64,000 nt of DNA, from positions 496,001-560,000 of the forward strand of contig NZ_JAIVMG010000001.1 in NCBI RefSeq assembly GCF_020177335.1, written 5' to 3'. The first letter of the stretch is position 1; the number at the start of each line of letters is the position of its first letter. Shown piece by piece: positions 1 to 32,140 of the stretch. The notes beneath the pieces were generated by a model, which did no database searches, was not told the DNA's origin, and worked only from the letters and a program-made list of their open reading frames with translations. The DNA is from Stappia indica (GTDB taxonomy: Bacteria; Pseudomonadota; Alphaproteobacteria; Rhizobiales; Stappiaceae). A program made the translations under genes and the position numbers.

Positions 1-3217
<3,217 letters not shown>

Positions 3218-3374: not shown

Positions 3375-3491
3375 TCAGGGGCGCAAAACCTCGGCGATTG
3401 CATCGCTCCACAGCAGCATCGTCATGCCGAACAGCGACAGCGAGCCGAGCGCCACCAGATCCCTAACCGTTTCGCGCACCAGATGAAACAT
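3375..3491 (-). CDS. 38-residue putative inner-membrane microprotein under a LexA box
   Basis: A short frame of 38 codons plus stop, preceded by a GGGGGAA ribosome site seven bases before the ATG. The product begins MFHLVRETVRDLVALG and ends AIAEVLRP, with one hydrophobic stretch at residues 13-28 (LVALGSLSLFGMTMLLW) that should cross the inner membrane. A perfect GTTC-N7-GTTC sits 39-53 bases upstream of the ATG, between candidate -35 and -10 hexamers. The gene lies between lolD and dnaE on the same strand. I do not recognise a named family. Size, topology and SOS control recall SidA of Caulobacter, a 29-residue SOS-induced division inhibitor acting on FtsW/FtsN. That functional link is inference only. 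Confidence 0.7.
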   Translation of the reverse strand: MFHLVRETVRDLVALGSLSLFGMTMLLWSDAIAEVLRP

Positions 3492-3524
3492 GACATTCCC
3501 CCGTTGATCGAGCCTGATGCGTCC

Positions 3525-3553
3525 ATCATGTTCTCGTTTTGTTCTTTATGCAA
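3525..3553 (-). promoter_or_regulatory. Candidate sigma70-type promoter of the 38-residue microprotein
   Basis: On the minus strand TTGCAT (3553-3548) and CATGAT (3530-3525) are separated by exactly 17 bases. The LexA box at 3530-3544 lies within the spacer, so bound LexA would block polymerase. The match to consensus is moderate (TTG core at -35, four of six at -10). Confidence 0.45.
3530..3544 (-). promoter_or_regulatory. LexA box GTTC-N7-GTTC
   Basis: On the plus strand GTTC at 3530-3533 and GTTC at 3541-3544 have seven bases between them. This is the direct-repeat SOS operator known in alphaproteobacteria. It lies just upstream of the 38-residue microprotein gene and about 310 bases upstream of dnaE. 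Chance occurrence of this eight-base pattern is roughly once per 65 kb per strand, so its position in a predicted promoter is the main support. Confidence 0.7.
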
Positions 3554-3629: not shown

Positions 3630-4349
3630 TCAGATCTCGACGACCTGGCGGTCCCTCAAGGTGATCCGCCGGTCCATCTTCGACGCCAGGTCGAGATTGT
3701 GCGTGGCGATCAGCGCCGCCAGCCCCGACGCGCGCACCAGCGCCACCAGGGCATCGAACACATAGGCAGAGGTCACCGGATCGAGGTTCCCGGTTGGCTC
3801 GTCGGCCAAGAGAATACGCGGCGCATTGGCGACCGCACGGGCAATGGCCACCCGTTGCTGTTCACCGCCCGACAGTTCCGAGGGGCGATGATCGGCGCGC
3901 GGCCCGAGCCGCATGTAGTCGAGAAGCTGCCGCGCCCGCGCCCGAGCCTCGGCCTTGTCGAGACCGCGAATGAGCTGCGGCATCATCAGGTTTTCCAGCG
4001 CGGTGAACTCCGGCAGGAGATGATGGAACTGATAGACGAAGCCGAGCCGGGTGCGGCGCATCCGCGTGCGCTCCGCATCGTCCATGCTGCCGCAGGGCAC
4101 ACCGTCGATGTAGATCTCACCTTCGTCGGGACGTTCCAGCAGACCGGCGATATGCAGCAGCGTCGACTTGCCGGCCCCGGACGGGGCCACCAATGCCACC
4201 AACTCTCCCGGATGAAGCGCGAGATTGGCATTGCTGAGGATATCGAGCCGTCCGGCCCCCTCGCGAAAGCCCCGGCTGATGCCTGCCAGCATCAGGGGCA
4301 GCGGTGCGTTCTCTCCGGCCATGGTCGTCGCGTGATCCATCATCGTCAT
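3630..4349 (-). CDS. lolD: Lipoprotein-releasing ABC transporter ATP-binding protein
   Basis: ATPase of the LolCDE complex, which extracts lipoproteins from the outer leaflet of the inner membrane for transfer to LolA. The 239-residue protein has Walker A APSGAGKS (about residues 56-63), a Q-loop at VYQFHHLL, the ABC signature LSGGEQQR and Walker [10 protein letters not shown] with the H-loop ATHN. Its ATG overlaps the lolC stop codon (ATGA), so the two are translationally coupled. The N-terminus has three closely spaced ATGs (4349, 4343, 4340) that cannot be separated by eye. Confidence 0.95.
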
Positions 4350-5635
4350 TCGTATCGCAGCGCCTCGACCGGATCGAGCCGGGCCGCGCGCCAGGCCGGA
4401 TAGAGCGTCGCCAGCAGCGACAGGACCATGGCCATGATGACCACGGTGGCGGTCTCGCCACTGTCCATATCCGCCGGCAGACGGCTCAGGAAGTAAAGCT
4501 CCGGCGAGAACAGTTCGGTTCGCGTCAGCCAGGAGATGCCCTGACGGATCGGCTCGATGTTGAGACAGACGACAAAGCCGAGGATGAACCCGGCCAACGT
4601 GCCGACCACGCCGATGCTGGCCCCGGTGATGACGAAGACCCGCAACACCGCGCCACGGGTTGCCCCCATGGTGCGCAGGATGGCGATATCCCGGCCCTTG
4701 TCCTTCACCAGCATGGTCATGCCGGAAATGATGTTGAGTGCGGCGACGATGACGATCAGCATCAGGATCAGGAACATCACGTTGCGCTCCACCTCAAGGG
4801 CGGAAAAGAACGTGACATTGCGTGTGCGCCAGTCGGTGACATAGGTCGGCCGCCCGGCCCCCTCCTCCACCAGCGGCTTCAACCGGCCGACGTCGTCGGG
4901 GTTCTCGGTGAACACCTCGATGCCGGTAACGATGCCTTCCTGGTTGAAGTAGCGCTGCGCCTCGGCCAGCGGCATGAAGGCGATGGTGCCGTCATACTCG
5001 GACATGCCGATTTCAAACACGGCAACCACCGGATAGCCCTTCACTCGGGGGGTGACGCCCATCGGCGTGACATTGCCGCGCGGACTGACCAGCGTCACCG
5101 TATCCCCGACATTGACGCCAAGCTGCTGGGCCATCCGTGTGCCGATGGCGATGCCGGTTCCCTCGTCGAACTTGTCGAGCGTTCCGGTCACGACCGTGTT
5201 GGCGACCAGCGGCTGGCGCATCAGGTCGCCCTCGCGCACACCGCGCACCAGAGCACCAAACGCGCCCGAGGGACCGGAGACCAGCGTCTGCCCCTCCACG
5301 AACGGCAAGGTGAAGGTGATGCCGTCGAGGTTTTCCAGGCGCGCGGCCACCGCGTCATAGTCGTCAAGCTCGCTGCCGATCGGCTGCACCAGCAGATGAC
5401 CGTTGATGCCGAGGATCTTGGACAGAAGCTCGCCGCGGAAGCCGTTCATCACCGCCATGACGATGATCAGGGTCGCAACCCCCAGCATGATGCCAAGAAA
5501 GGAGAACCCCGCGATCACCGAAATGAAGGTTTCCCGCCGGCGCGAGCGCAGGTAGCGCCCGGCAAGCATCCATTCGAACCCGGCGAACATGCGCGTATCA
5601 CCGGATGATCGGGAAGCTTTGACGCCTATTTTCAT
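4346..5635 (-). CDS. lolC: Lipoprotein-releasing ABC transporter permease (LolC/LolE family)
   Basis: Membrane subunit of the lipoprotein-release transporter. The N-terminus [17 protein letters not shown] leads into the first membrane helix ([20 protein letters not shown]). A large periplasmic MacB-like domain follows, then three C-terminal helices ([50 protein letters not shown]), giving the FtsX/LolC 1+3 topology. I chose the ATG at 5635, preceded by AGAGACAGG. An upstream ATG at 5692 would overlap proS, and a later one at 5590 is possible. With only one permease gene here, the complex may use LolC/E homodimers, as in many alphaproteobacteria. Confidence 0.93.
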
Positions 5636-5672
5636 ACCTGTCTCTTGCCTTGCATGGGGCGAACGGCCCGTC

Positions 5673-7001
5673 TCAGGAGGACAGCTCGCCAATCAAGCGA
5701 TTGACCGCTTCTTGCGGCGAAAGCGTGGCGCGCTCGCCGCTTGCCCGCGCCTTCACCTCAACCACACCGTCCTTCAGCCCGCGCGGGCCGACGATCAGCT
5801 GATACGGCAGGCCGATCAGATCCATGGTCGCGAACTTCGCACCGGCCCGACTGTCGACATCGTCGACAAGCACGTCGAGACCGGCTTTCGTCAACTGGGC
5901 GTCGAGATCGGCGCAGGCCGCATCCGTGGCCGCATCGCCCGGCTTCAGATTGATGATGCCCACATGGAACGGCGCGACCGACGCCGGCCAGACGATGCCA
6001 TCGTCGTCGTGATGCGCCTCGATGATCGCACCGAGCAGGCGGGACACGCCGACACCATAGGAGCCCATGTGCACCGGCACCTCGGCCCCGTCCGGGCCGG
6101 TCACCTTTGCATTCATCGGCTCGGAATACTTGGTGCCGAAATAGAAGATATGACCAACCTCGATGCCGCGCGCGGACATGCGCTCCGCTTCCGGAACCGC
6201 CTCGAAGGCGGCAGCGTCATGCATTTCGTCGGTGGCGGCATAAGGCGTCGTCCAGTCGGTGATGACCGGGCTCAGGTCGGCGGTGAAGTCCGTGTCCTCA
6301 CCGGGAATCGGCAGGTCAAGGATCGCCTTGTCGCAGAAAACCTCGCTCTCGCCGGTGGAGGCGAGAATAATGAACTCGTGGCTCATGTCGCCGCCGATCG
6401 GGCCCGTATCGGCGCGCATCGGGATCGCCTTCAGCCCCATGCGGGCGAAGGTGCGAAGATAGGCGACGAACATGCGGTTGTAGGCGTGGCGCGCGCTTTC
6501 CTTGTCCAGGTCGAAGGAATAGGCATCCTTCATCAGGAACTCGCGGCCGCGCATCACGCCGAAGCGCGGCCGCACCTCGTCGCGGAACTTCCACTGGATG
6601 TGATAGAGATTGAGCGGCAGGTCGCGGTAGCTCTTCACCGACGCACGGAAGATGTCGGTGACCATCTCCTCGTTGGTCGGGCCGAACAGCATCTCGCGCT
6701 CGTGGCGGTCGGTGATGCGCAGCATCTCCTTGCCATAGGCATCGTAGCGCCCGCTCTCGCGCCACAGGTCGGCAGGCTGCACCGTCGGCATCAAGAGTTC
6801 CTGCGCCCCGGCCCGGTTCTGCTCCTCGCGCACGATCTGCTCGATCTTGCGCAAGACCCTGAGCCCCATCGGCAACCACGCATAGATACCCGCCGTTTCC
6901 TGACGGATCATGCCGGCGCGCAGCATCAGCCGGTGCGACACGATCTCCGCCTCTTTCGGCGTTTCCTTGAGAATGGGGAGGAAGTAGCGGGACAGATGCA
7001 T
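5673..7001 (-). CDS. proS: Prolyl-tRNA synthetase, short alphaproteobacterial form
   Basis: Charges tRNA-Pro with proline. The class II motifs are visible: motif 2 near [20 protein letters not shown] and motif 3 in the [15 protein letters not shown] segment, followed by a C-terminal anticodon-binding domain ([11 protein letters not shown] onward). At about 442 residues it lacks the ~180-residue editing insertion found in E. coli-type ProS, which is normal for this order. The ATG at 7001 gives [13 protein letters not shown], matching the family N-terminus. A GTG four codons upstream (7013) is the alternative. lolC follows after 37 bases, so proS-lolC-lolD probably form one transcript. Confidence 0.96.
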
Positions 7002-26913: not shown

Positions 26914-26928
26914 GTTCCCTATTCGTTC
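26914..26928. promoter_or_regulatory. LexA box GTTC-N7-GTTC, ssb side
   Basis: GTTC at 26914-26917 and 26925-26928 with seven bases between them. It lies about 136 bases upstream of ssb in the divergent ssb-uvrA gap. It is a perfect match to the alphaproteobacterial SOS operator. Confidence 0.75.
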
Positions 26929-27055: not shown

Positions 27056-27070
27056 GTTCTTATTATGTTC
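27056..27070. promoter_or_regulatory. LexA box GTTC-N7-GTTC, uvrA side
   Basis: GTTC at 27056-27059 and 27067-27070 with the AT-rich seven-base spacer TTATTAT. TATTAT (27061-27066) could be the uvrA -10, with ACTTGC at 27038-27043 as -35 and a 17-base spacer, so LexA would cover the promoter. It lies about 185 bases upstream of uvrA. Confidence 0.8.
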
Positions 27071-30560: not shown

Positions 30561-30692
30561 GATCACGTTCAAAGGGATAGACCTCCTCCCCTGTCCCTTT
30601 AGCGTGCCCGGCGAGGCATCCTCCTCCCAGCCTCGTCCGGAAATAGCGTCGCCCGCCGGTTCTCCTCCCTCCGGTGGGCGATCGCTTTTTTG
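30561..30692 (+). ncRNA. Predicted CcsR/cuckoo-type small RNA 1 with three CUCCUCCC loops
   Basis: Three hairpins follow the DUF1127 stop codon. Hairpin 1: a 10-bp stem (30571-30580 with 30591-30600, one G-U) and loop ACCUCCUCCC. Hairpin 2: an 8-bp stem (30610-30617 with 30630-30637) and a loop holding CUCCUCCC at 30621-30628. Hairpin 3: an 11-bp stem (30649-30659 with 30671-30681), loop UUCUCCUCCCU, then a T-run at 30686-30691, so it is also the terminator. CUCCUCCC is complementary to strong Shine-Dalgarno sequences. Known CcsR/cuckoo RNAs carry this motif in loops. It is probably made as the 3' UTR of the DUF1127 mRNA and then processed. Confidence 0.85.
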
Positions 30693-31698: not shown

Positions 31699-32007
31699 CC
31701 TCTTTTGATATCATGTGTTCGCGCCTGCCAGCCAGCGCAAGCACCAGTGAGAAAGGCGCGCGTGTCTGAGCCAGGAGGCAAAATCCGGCTCCAGGAATTC
31801 TTGATATCCCTTATATTACAGTATGTTATCTTGAGATCCGGACAAACCCCTCCCGCGCATTGCCAAGGGCGAGACGTGGCTTGAAGCACCGCTCATTTTG
31901 CGCTGCACACAAAATGGCGCGAAAATTTGTGCAGTGCCCTGCGCTGGGATCAGAGCTGATATGCAACCTCGGCTCTGGCAATCAGGGGCCGACTCCCCCA
32001 TATGTCT
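31699..32007. other. Intergenic region ahead of the second CUCCUCCC RNA
   Basis: No credible gene. The AT-rich 31800-31830 stretch may hold the promoter of the minus-strand gene ending at 31120. Just before the RNA, CTGGCA (31975-31980) and CCATAT (31998-32003) are 17 bases apart. The block CCCCCATAT resembles a heat-shock sigma -10 element. This would start RNA 2 near 32010, but it is only a pattern match. Confidence 0.35.
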
Positions 32008-32140
32008 CTCAACGGCGCCGGACACTCCTCCTCCCAACGTCTGGCTCCGTTGTACAACCGGTGCACCTCCTCCCAGCATCGGTTGCCAATAAATGGCGCC
32101 CACCGGTTCTCCTCCCTCCGGTGGGCGTTATTTATTTCTG
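32008..32140 (+). ncRNA. Predicted CcsR/cuckoo-type small RNA 2 with three CUCCUCCC loops
   Basis: Three hairpins again carry the motif. Hairpin 1: outer AACGG/CCGTT and inner GCCGGAC/GTCTGGC stems (32011-32051), with CUCCUCCC at 32028-32035. Hairpin 2: a 9-bp stem (32056-32064 with 32076-32084) and loop ACCUCCUCCCA. Hairpin 3: a perfect 10-bp stem (32097-32106 with 32118-32127), loop UUCUCCUCCCU and a T-rich tail. Hairpin 3 shares 25 identical bases with hairpin 3 of RNA 1, so the two are paralogues. This copy has no adjacent DUF1127 gene and may have its own promoter. Confidence 0.85.

Follow-up and report, generated by a model that had tools for sequence, protein, structure and literature searches.

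In Caulobacter crescentus, SidA, a peptide of 29 aa, resides in the inner membrane and acts on FtsW (PMC4211646), and its gene is CCNA_02004 (PMC10769358). The same bacterium produces DidA, a small one-helix membrane division inhibitor that is likewise induced by DNA damage but differs in being 71 aa long, in its SOS-independent control (DriD), and in interacting with FtsN (PMC4211646). SOS-induced division inhibitors have also been described from another phylum, namely YneA of Bacillus subtilis and SosA of Staphylococcus aureus, and YneA was reported to interact with FtsW (PMC13396833, PMC6851548). Escherichia coli has SulA, an SOS-induced division inhibitor that differs in that it disrupts the polymerization of FtsZ (PMC4211646). 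A term search of the open-licence PMC literature, supplements aside, found no description of SidA outside Caulobacter, nor any of a division halt after DNA damage in rhizobia or in many other alphaproteobacteria; where the string "SidA" occurs in two of the papers (PMC11031950, PMC9638019), it is the word Sidak and carries no SidA content.

The gene discussed here lies in a 64,000-nucleotide stretch of the Stappia indica genome (contig NZ_JAIVMG010000001.1, positions 496,001 to 560,000), which is called the window below. Its predicted product resembles SidA in being a very small one-helix membrane peptide, its predicted control is by LexA, and its place relative to dnaE1 is also alike, the dnaE side of the Caulobacter gene being deduced from locus numbers; the sequence signature was compared via Caulobacteraceae frames. 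The window peptide is longer than SidA (38 vs 29 aa), the alignment showing four residues inserted near the N-terminus and an extended C-terminal part, and its upstream neighbor, presumably lolD, is unlike that of SidA. Identity with DidA is excluded both by length (38 vs 71 aa) and by control (a LexA box vs SOS-independent induction). The likeness to YneA and SosA is one of description, and we know of no relation of either protein to the window peptide; SulA is soluble and is not known to be related to it.

Gene layout and control region

The window contains a 38-codon frame at positions 3375-3491 of the minus strand, as the initial annotation had claimed. The encoded 38-aa peptide, MFHLVRETVRDLVALGSLSLFGMTMLLWSDAIAEVLRP, has a hydrophobic stretch and is predicted by AlphaFold2 (single sequence) to form one helix spanning residues 2-36, with a mean pLDDT of 95.5. 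No match was found in Pfam for the window peptide, nor in NCBIfam for the peptide and four relatives, which rules out a known family model among the members scanned; at the nucleotide level, no Rfam model scored up to its gathering threshold over the peptide locus.

The gene order in the window is lolD, peptide gene, dnaE1, all on the minus strand. The upstream neighbor (3630-4349) encodes an ABC-transporter ATPase (PF00005) that we take to be LolD from its gene position, and beyond it lies a permease gene (4346-5692, minus strand, first listed start TTG) with FtsX and MacB_PCD domains, presumably lolC or lolE. The gene that follows the peptide gene on the same strand was said to be dnaE, and it can be specified as dnaE1, encoding DNA polymerase III alpha. 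It occupies positions 1-3217 and extends past the window edge; the assignment, made by eye and from gene place, is accompanied by a PHP domain and by a 1187-aa open frame in the genome. The ATG of dnaE1 is at 3217 or at 3199, which places it 157 or 175 nt, respectively, past the peptide stop. The observation of an SOS-type microprotein gene before dnaE is confirmed.

When the coding strand is read in the downstream direction, the elements succeed one another in the order TTGCAT, LexA box, CATGAT, GGGGG, and ATG. The LexA box, GTTCTCGTTTTGTTC at positions 3530-3544 (GAACAAAACGAGAAC in the coding-strand reading, minus strand), is situated 38 nt 5' of the ATG. It is flanked by TTGCAT (3553-3548), a likely -35 element recognized by eye and in the genus alignment, and by CATGAT (3530-3525), a likely -10 element recognized by eye, with a spacer of 17 nt between the two. 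The box was claimed to be perfect and to sit within the promoter spacer: the first part holds, and the second holds by eye, with a one-base overlap between box and -10 hexamer, but a stricter consensus scan detected no promoter at the locus. The same scan detected no terminator-like site between the frame and dnaE. The ribosome-binding site, GGGGG at 3502-3498 (minus strand), 6 nt 5' of the ATG, is present as well and is graded as fair, and the relatives are G-rich at the equivalent place.

A bare LexA box is in itself no evidence, because exact GTTCN7GTTC sites in the host genome (50+61) are no commoner than sites of the reversed pattern (52+60). The genome does have a lexA gene, with a box 60 nt ahead of its DNA-binding domain, and other boxes precede recA-, tag-, comM-, and mmcB-like genes, these names having been given by eye. 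Within the window, an exact LexA box at 27056-27070, between divergent ssb-like and uvrA-like genes (also named by eye), provides a classical SOS target for comparison, and an additional exact GTTCN7GTTC, perhaps another ssb operator, was noticed near it, at 26914-26928. Elsewhere in the window, two matches to the alphaproteobacterial small RNA ar14 (RF02344) were found on the plus strand, at 30564-30686 and 32007-32133, about 1.4 kb apart.

Conservation of the frame and of its box

A search of related genomes for a conserved frame with a LexA box had been put forward as the check on which the initial annotation could fail. It did not fail: both are conserved in the 14 genomes of the genus and beyond. 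The peptide is matched in 14/14 same-genus genomes, own included, with a worst E value of 4.2e-5, and the exact box and the TTG that precedes it are retained in every one of them. For the peptide frame, mean pS is 0.51 and mean pN is 0.23, with pN below pS in 90 of the 91 genus pairs, which are mutually non-independent, whereas the two alternative frames have pN above pS (pS 0.27 and pN 0.31 for one, pS 0.19 and pN 0.35 for the other). Purifying selection therefore acts, of the three frames, on the peptide frame only, and the pN of 0.23 against the pS of 0.51 indicates that it is the amino acids that are selected.

At a loose threshold (E<=10), the peptide search gave a match in 43 of 61 relatives, although many of the weaker ones have E values over 0.1 and not all of them belong to the family, L035 at least being outside it. 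Thirty of the relatives' loci were fetched, and dnaE was in reach in 29 of them, own included; L035 is the one without it and was dropped. The family frame precedes dnaE in all 29 loci and the exact box is found in 28. Because frame, box, and place are conserved together, more than chance is involved.

The distribution in the order was determined with a profile, A1, made of 32 members, including order members and seven Caulobacteraceae, and having the consensus MxxxxxDxxALxSLxxFxxxxxxW. Applied to 149 genomes of the order, A1 produced 62 matches at E<=0.01, and 28 of the best-scoring loci among the 62 were examined (L350-L377, own included), two other top-scoring loci, L013 and L016, having been examined earlier. 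In each of the 28, the family frame is intact, is 31-38 aa long, lies on the dnaE strand, and ends 26-674 nt before dnaE, and stops flagged inside three A1-aligned stretches fall outside the intact frames. An exact box lies 27-71 nt 5' of the start in 25 of the 28; as judged by eye, two of the remaining three differ by one letter in the second half-site and the third is without an evident box. Because A1 contains order members, the agreement within the order is partly built in, but the adjacency to dnaE is not.

A survey that is independent of the peptide was made by searching 290 Alphaproteobacteria with the dnaE1 N-terminus, which matched 285, and by examining the region upstream of the 150 best-scoring matches, own included. 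Three of the 150 upstream stretches end early at contig ends, one of them (L074) consisting of 250 bases. An exact box was present within about 430 nt before dnaE in 24 of the 150 class loci, spanning 13 families, where about one box would be expected by chance in 150 such stretches, as estimated from the site density of the host genome. In all 24, the box is followed by a small hydrophobic frame. A1 matches 22 of these frames, two of them weakly (L066 and L179), and leaves L113 and L142 unmatched; conversely, every one of the 22 A1-matched frames among the 150 class loci has an exact box. At L164 and L171, boxes occur about 0.9 and 1.1 kb from dnaE and are not accompanied by a small hydrophobic frame, and in 126 of the 150 class loci neither the family frame nor the box was found near dnaE.

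Relation to the Caulobacteraceae frames and to SidA

The relation between the window-side frames and those of the Caulobacteraceae was assessed with a profile built solely on 20 peptides of the window's family and run against 1629 small dnaE-upstream frames from other groups. The 25 top-scoring frames are, without exception, the dnaE-adjacent family frame: 16 were positive by the box rule, and nine, first labeled negative as they have no exact box or no ATG, were recognized by A1. With this profile, comparison with 259 membrane-like frames gave an AUC of 0.89, and comparison with the frames' own shuffles gave AUCs of 0.92 and 0.88. The scores of single frames are weak, with only the top three at E < 0.001 and the Caulobacteraceae frames at E 0.03 or worse, and the best shuffle, at 10.3 bits, comes near the best Caulobacteraceae frame, at 10.7 bits. 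When the two sets were compared directly by hhalign, the probability was 0.7%, which is not significant; comparison of each set with an intermediate set gave 69% and 73%, values that come with no shuffled control. The signature (R/K)(D/E)xxALAS....F is common to the window peptide and the Caulobacteraceae frames, and a one-helix signature persists from family to family. With place, control, and signature all shared, common descent nevertheless remains the reading that fits best.

Among the Brevundimonas-like loci of the Caulobacteraceae, which were matched with the DnaE of G264, a genome of the class survey, and of which the 80 best were considered, the family frame precedes dnaE in 79, one example of the peptide being MSRLVRDMLSLASCGGFVWMVWQAALLAS, and the exact box is found in 69. 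Two exact GAAC-N7-GAAC boxes, whose starts are 18 nt apart, lie before dnaE in 33 of these 80 loci (L210-L289), an arrangement that perhaps provides tighter LexA control. In the Caulobacteraceae, the frame occurs in all 30 loci examined, which are the top-scoring among 39 matches from 40 genomes, and many of the frames are exactly 29 aa long, the length of SidA. Seventeen of the 30 loci have an exact box, and the rest have what by eye are near-boxes, mostly GAAC-N7-GAAT or GAAC-N7-CAAC. Seven of the A1 members come from the Caulobacteraceae, so that these counts are in part built in; the search led by the box is independent of A1. The genus of G368 was taken as Caulobacter, and 60 of its 61 genomes yielded a match at E<=1, with E values under 1e-6 in 59.

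The bridge to SidA itself was built from locus numbers and neighbors. CCNA_02005, next in number to sidA, is an inosine-uridine nucleoside hydrolase (PMC3667746). The C. crescentus dnaE gene is CC1926 and lexA is CC1902 (PMC1839093), and lexA is also CCNA_01979 (PMC11535069); from the offset between the two lexA numbers, dnaE should therefore be CCNA_02003. The Caulobacter-type genome G409 has dnaE1, a 29-aa frame, and a divergent nucleoside hydrolase (PF01156, E 8.3e-80) in this order, which corresponds to that of CCNA_02004 and CCNA_02005 beside the deduced dnaE number, and the window peptide gene is situated beside dnaE1 too. The former number of sidA is presumably CC1927. G409 is only one of 36 genomes of the genus to show the hydrolase neighbor, and it was found with a pattern widened after narrower ones had found none; its boxes are variants only, GAAC-N7-GAAT and GAAC-N7-CAAC. 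The narrow patterns revealed no nucleoside hydrolase near the Caulobacteraceae frames in one scan of 30 loci or in the 26 of 30 loci listed in a further scan, and in 12 Caulobacteraceae loci a narrow pattern found only a stretch inside DnaE.

Because place and box are conserved, the signature is shared, and the neighbors of Caulobacter sidA are published, the window peptide gene is very probably a SidA ortholog, the bridge consisting of length, neighbors, and locus numbers and not of the named SidA sequence. On the same grounds, the suggestion of a SidA-like peptide made by the initial annotation finds support, its size and single helix being predicted and its LexA control being predicted from an exact box in the promoter region of 14/14 genus genomes, own included.

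Proposed working and alternative readings

The preferred reading, to which a probability of about 80% is given, is that the gene is a sidA ortholog encoding a LexA-repressed, damage-induced membrane peptide that inhibits FtsW/FtsI/FtsN, with division paused until the damage is repaired. In undamaged cells, LexA would occupy the GAAC-N7-GAAC box of the promoter spacer, and the gene would thereby be silent. Upon DNA damage, RecA would become active, LexA would be cleaved, and the 38-aa peptide would be made. The peptide would enter the inner membrane as one helix, its charged N-terminus probably being cytoplasmic, and would keep the late division complex FtsW/FtsI/FtsN inactive, as was proposed for SidA of Caulobacter. 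By transfer from the same organism, the cells would be expected to elongate undivided (filamentation) until repair is complete. The division-inhibitor role of the window peptide is thus one that we infer by analogy. The host encodes one protein of the FtsW/RodA/SpoVE family, which aligns with one of the Caulobacter-type members.

The place of the gene before dnaE1 would reflect common descent, and the SOS promoter may also read through into dnaE1: a joint SOS rise of dnaE1 is conceivable because the adjacency to dnaE1 is steady and no terminator-like site was found. A bolder extension, which we consider doubtful, is that SidA is an ancestral alphaproteobacterial checkpoint gene tied to dnaE1, such that a single LexA promoter would stop division and raise the replicative polymerase.

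The emphasis could also be placed on the polymerase, with the LexA promoter mainly raising dnaE1 in the SOS response and the small frame acting as a leader, important more through its translation than through its product. The occurrence of the frame ahead of dnaE, and on its strand, in 28/28 best-scoring order loci would agree with such a role, as would the lack of a terminator-like site between the window frame and dnaE in the consensus scan and the gap of 157 or 175 nt here and of 35-60 nt in many Caulobacteraceae. However, this reading is improbable in view of the selection on amino acids (pN 0.23, pS 0.51), the one-helix signature kept across families, and gaps to dnaE that reach 674 nt in some genomes; furthermore, the word "dnaE" is absent from the main text, supplementary tables aside, of a paper on the Caulobacter SOS regulon (PMC12700426). 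A low probability of the same rank is assigned to an SOS-induced one-helix peptide of another kind, toxic for instance and not a divisome inhibitor. E. coli DinQ, a toxic peptide with one helix and under SOS regulation (PMC3567139), shares the size class and the SOS control, but the signature and the neighbors favor SidA, and an Rfam search, which bears on an antisense RNA, revealed no family at gathering score at the locus. Finally, the possibility that frame and LexA box are both products of chance, for which one could invoke the exact boxes being no commoner than the reversed pattern in the host genome, has a negligible probability and is refuted by the preservation of frame, box, and place in 14/14 genus genomes and well beyond, including 28/28 order loci.

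With the gene read as a SidA ortholog, what appears to be new is the breadth of SidA, its usual location upstream of dnaE1, and the profile of the family. Because relatives occupy the same place in other alphaproteobacteria, the SidA-type brake is probably more ancient and more widespread than the Caulobacter example in which it was studied. For the damage-induced division halt, the locus offers a concrete and easily overlooked candidate gene that comes with a profile and usually lies before dnaE1, and the tens of divergent natural variants have conserved residues that may indicate contacts with the division machinery.

Some genomes have more than one such peptide. In G563 and G493, which belong to one family, two family-like peptides are present in each: the dnaE1-side copy has a near-box (GAACAAAACAAATAC), and the second copy, at which no box was seen, adjoins a dnaN-like gene in G563 and is near an ssb-like gene in G493 (gene names by eye). 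G368 has a second SidA-like peptide, MTRLIRETLAFAAAATFVWAVCVGALVVGDLFRSLPA, at C3:315111-315185 (E 0.004), with no exact LexA box near, and its start apparently overlaps the end of the upstream frame.
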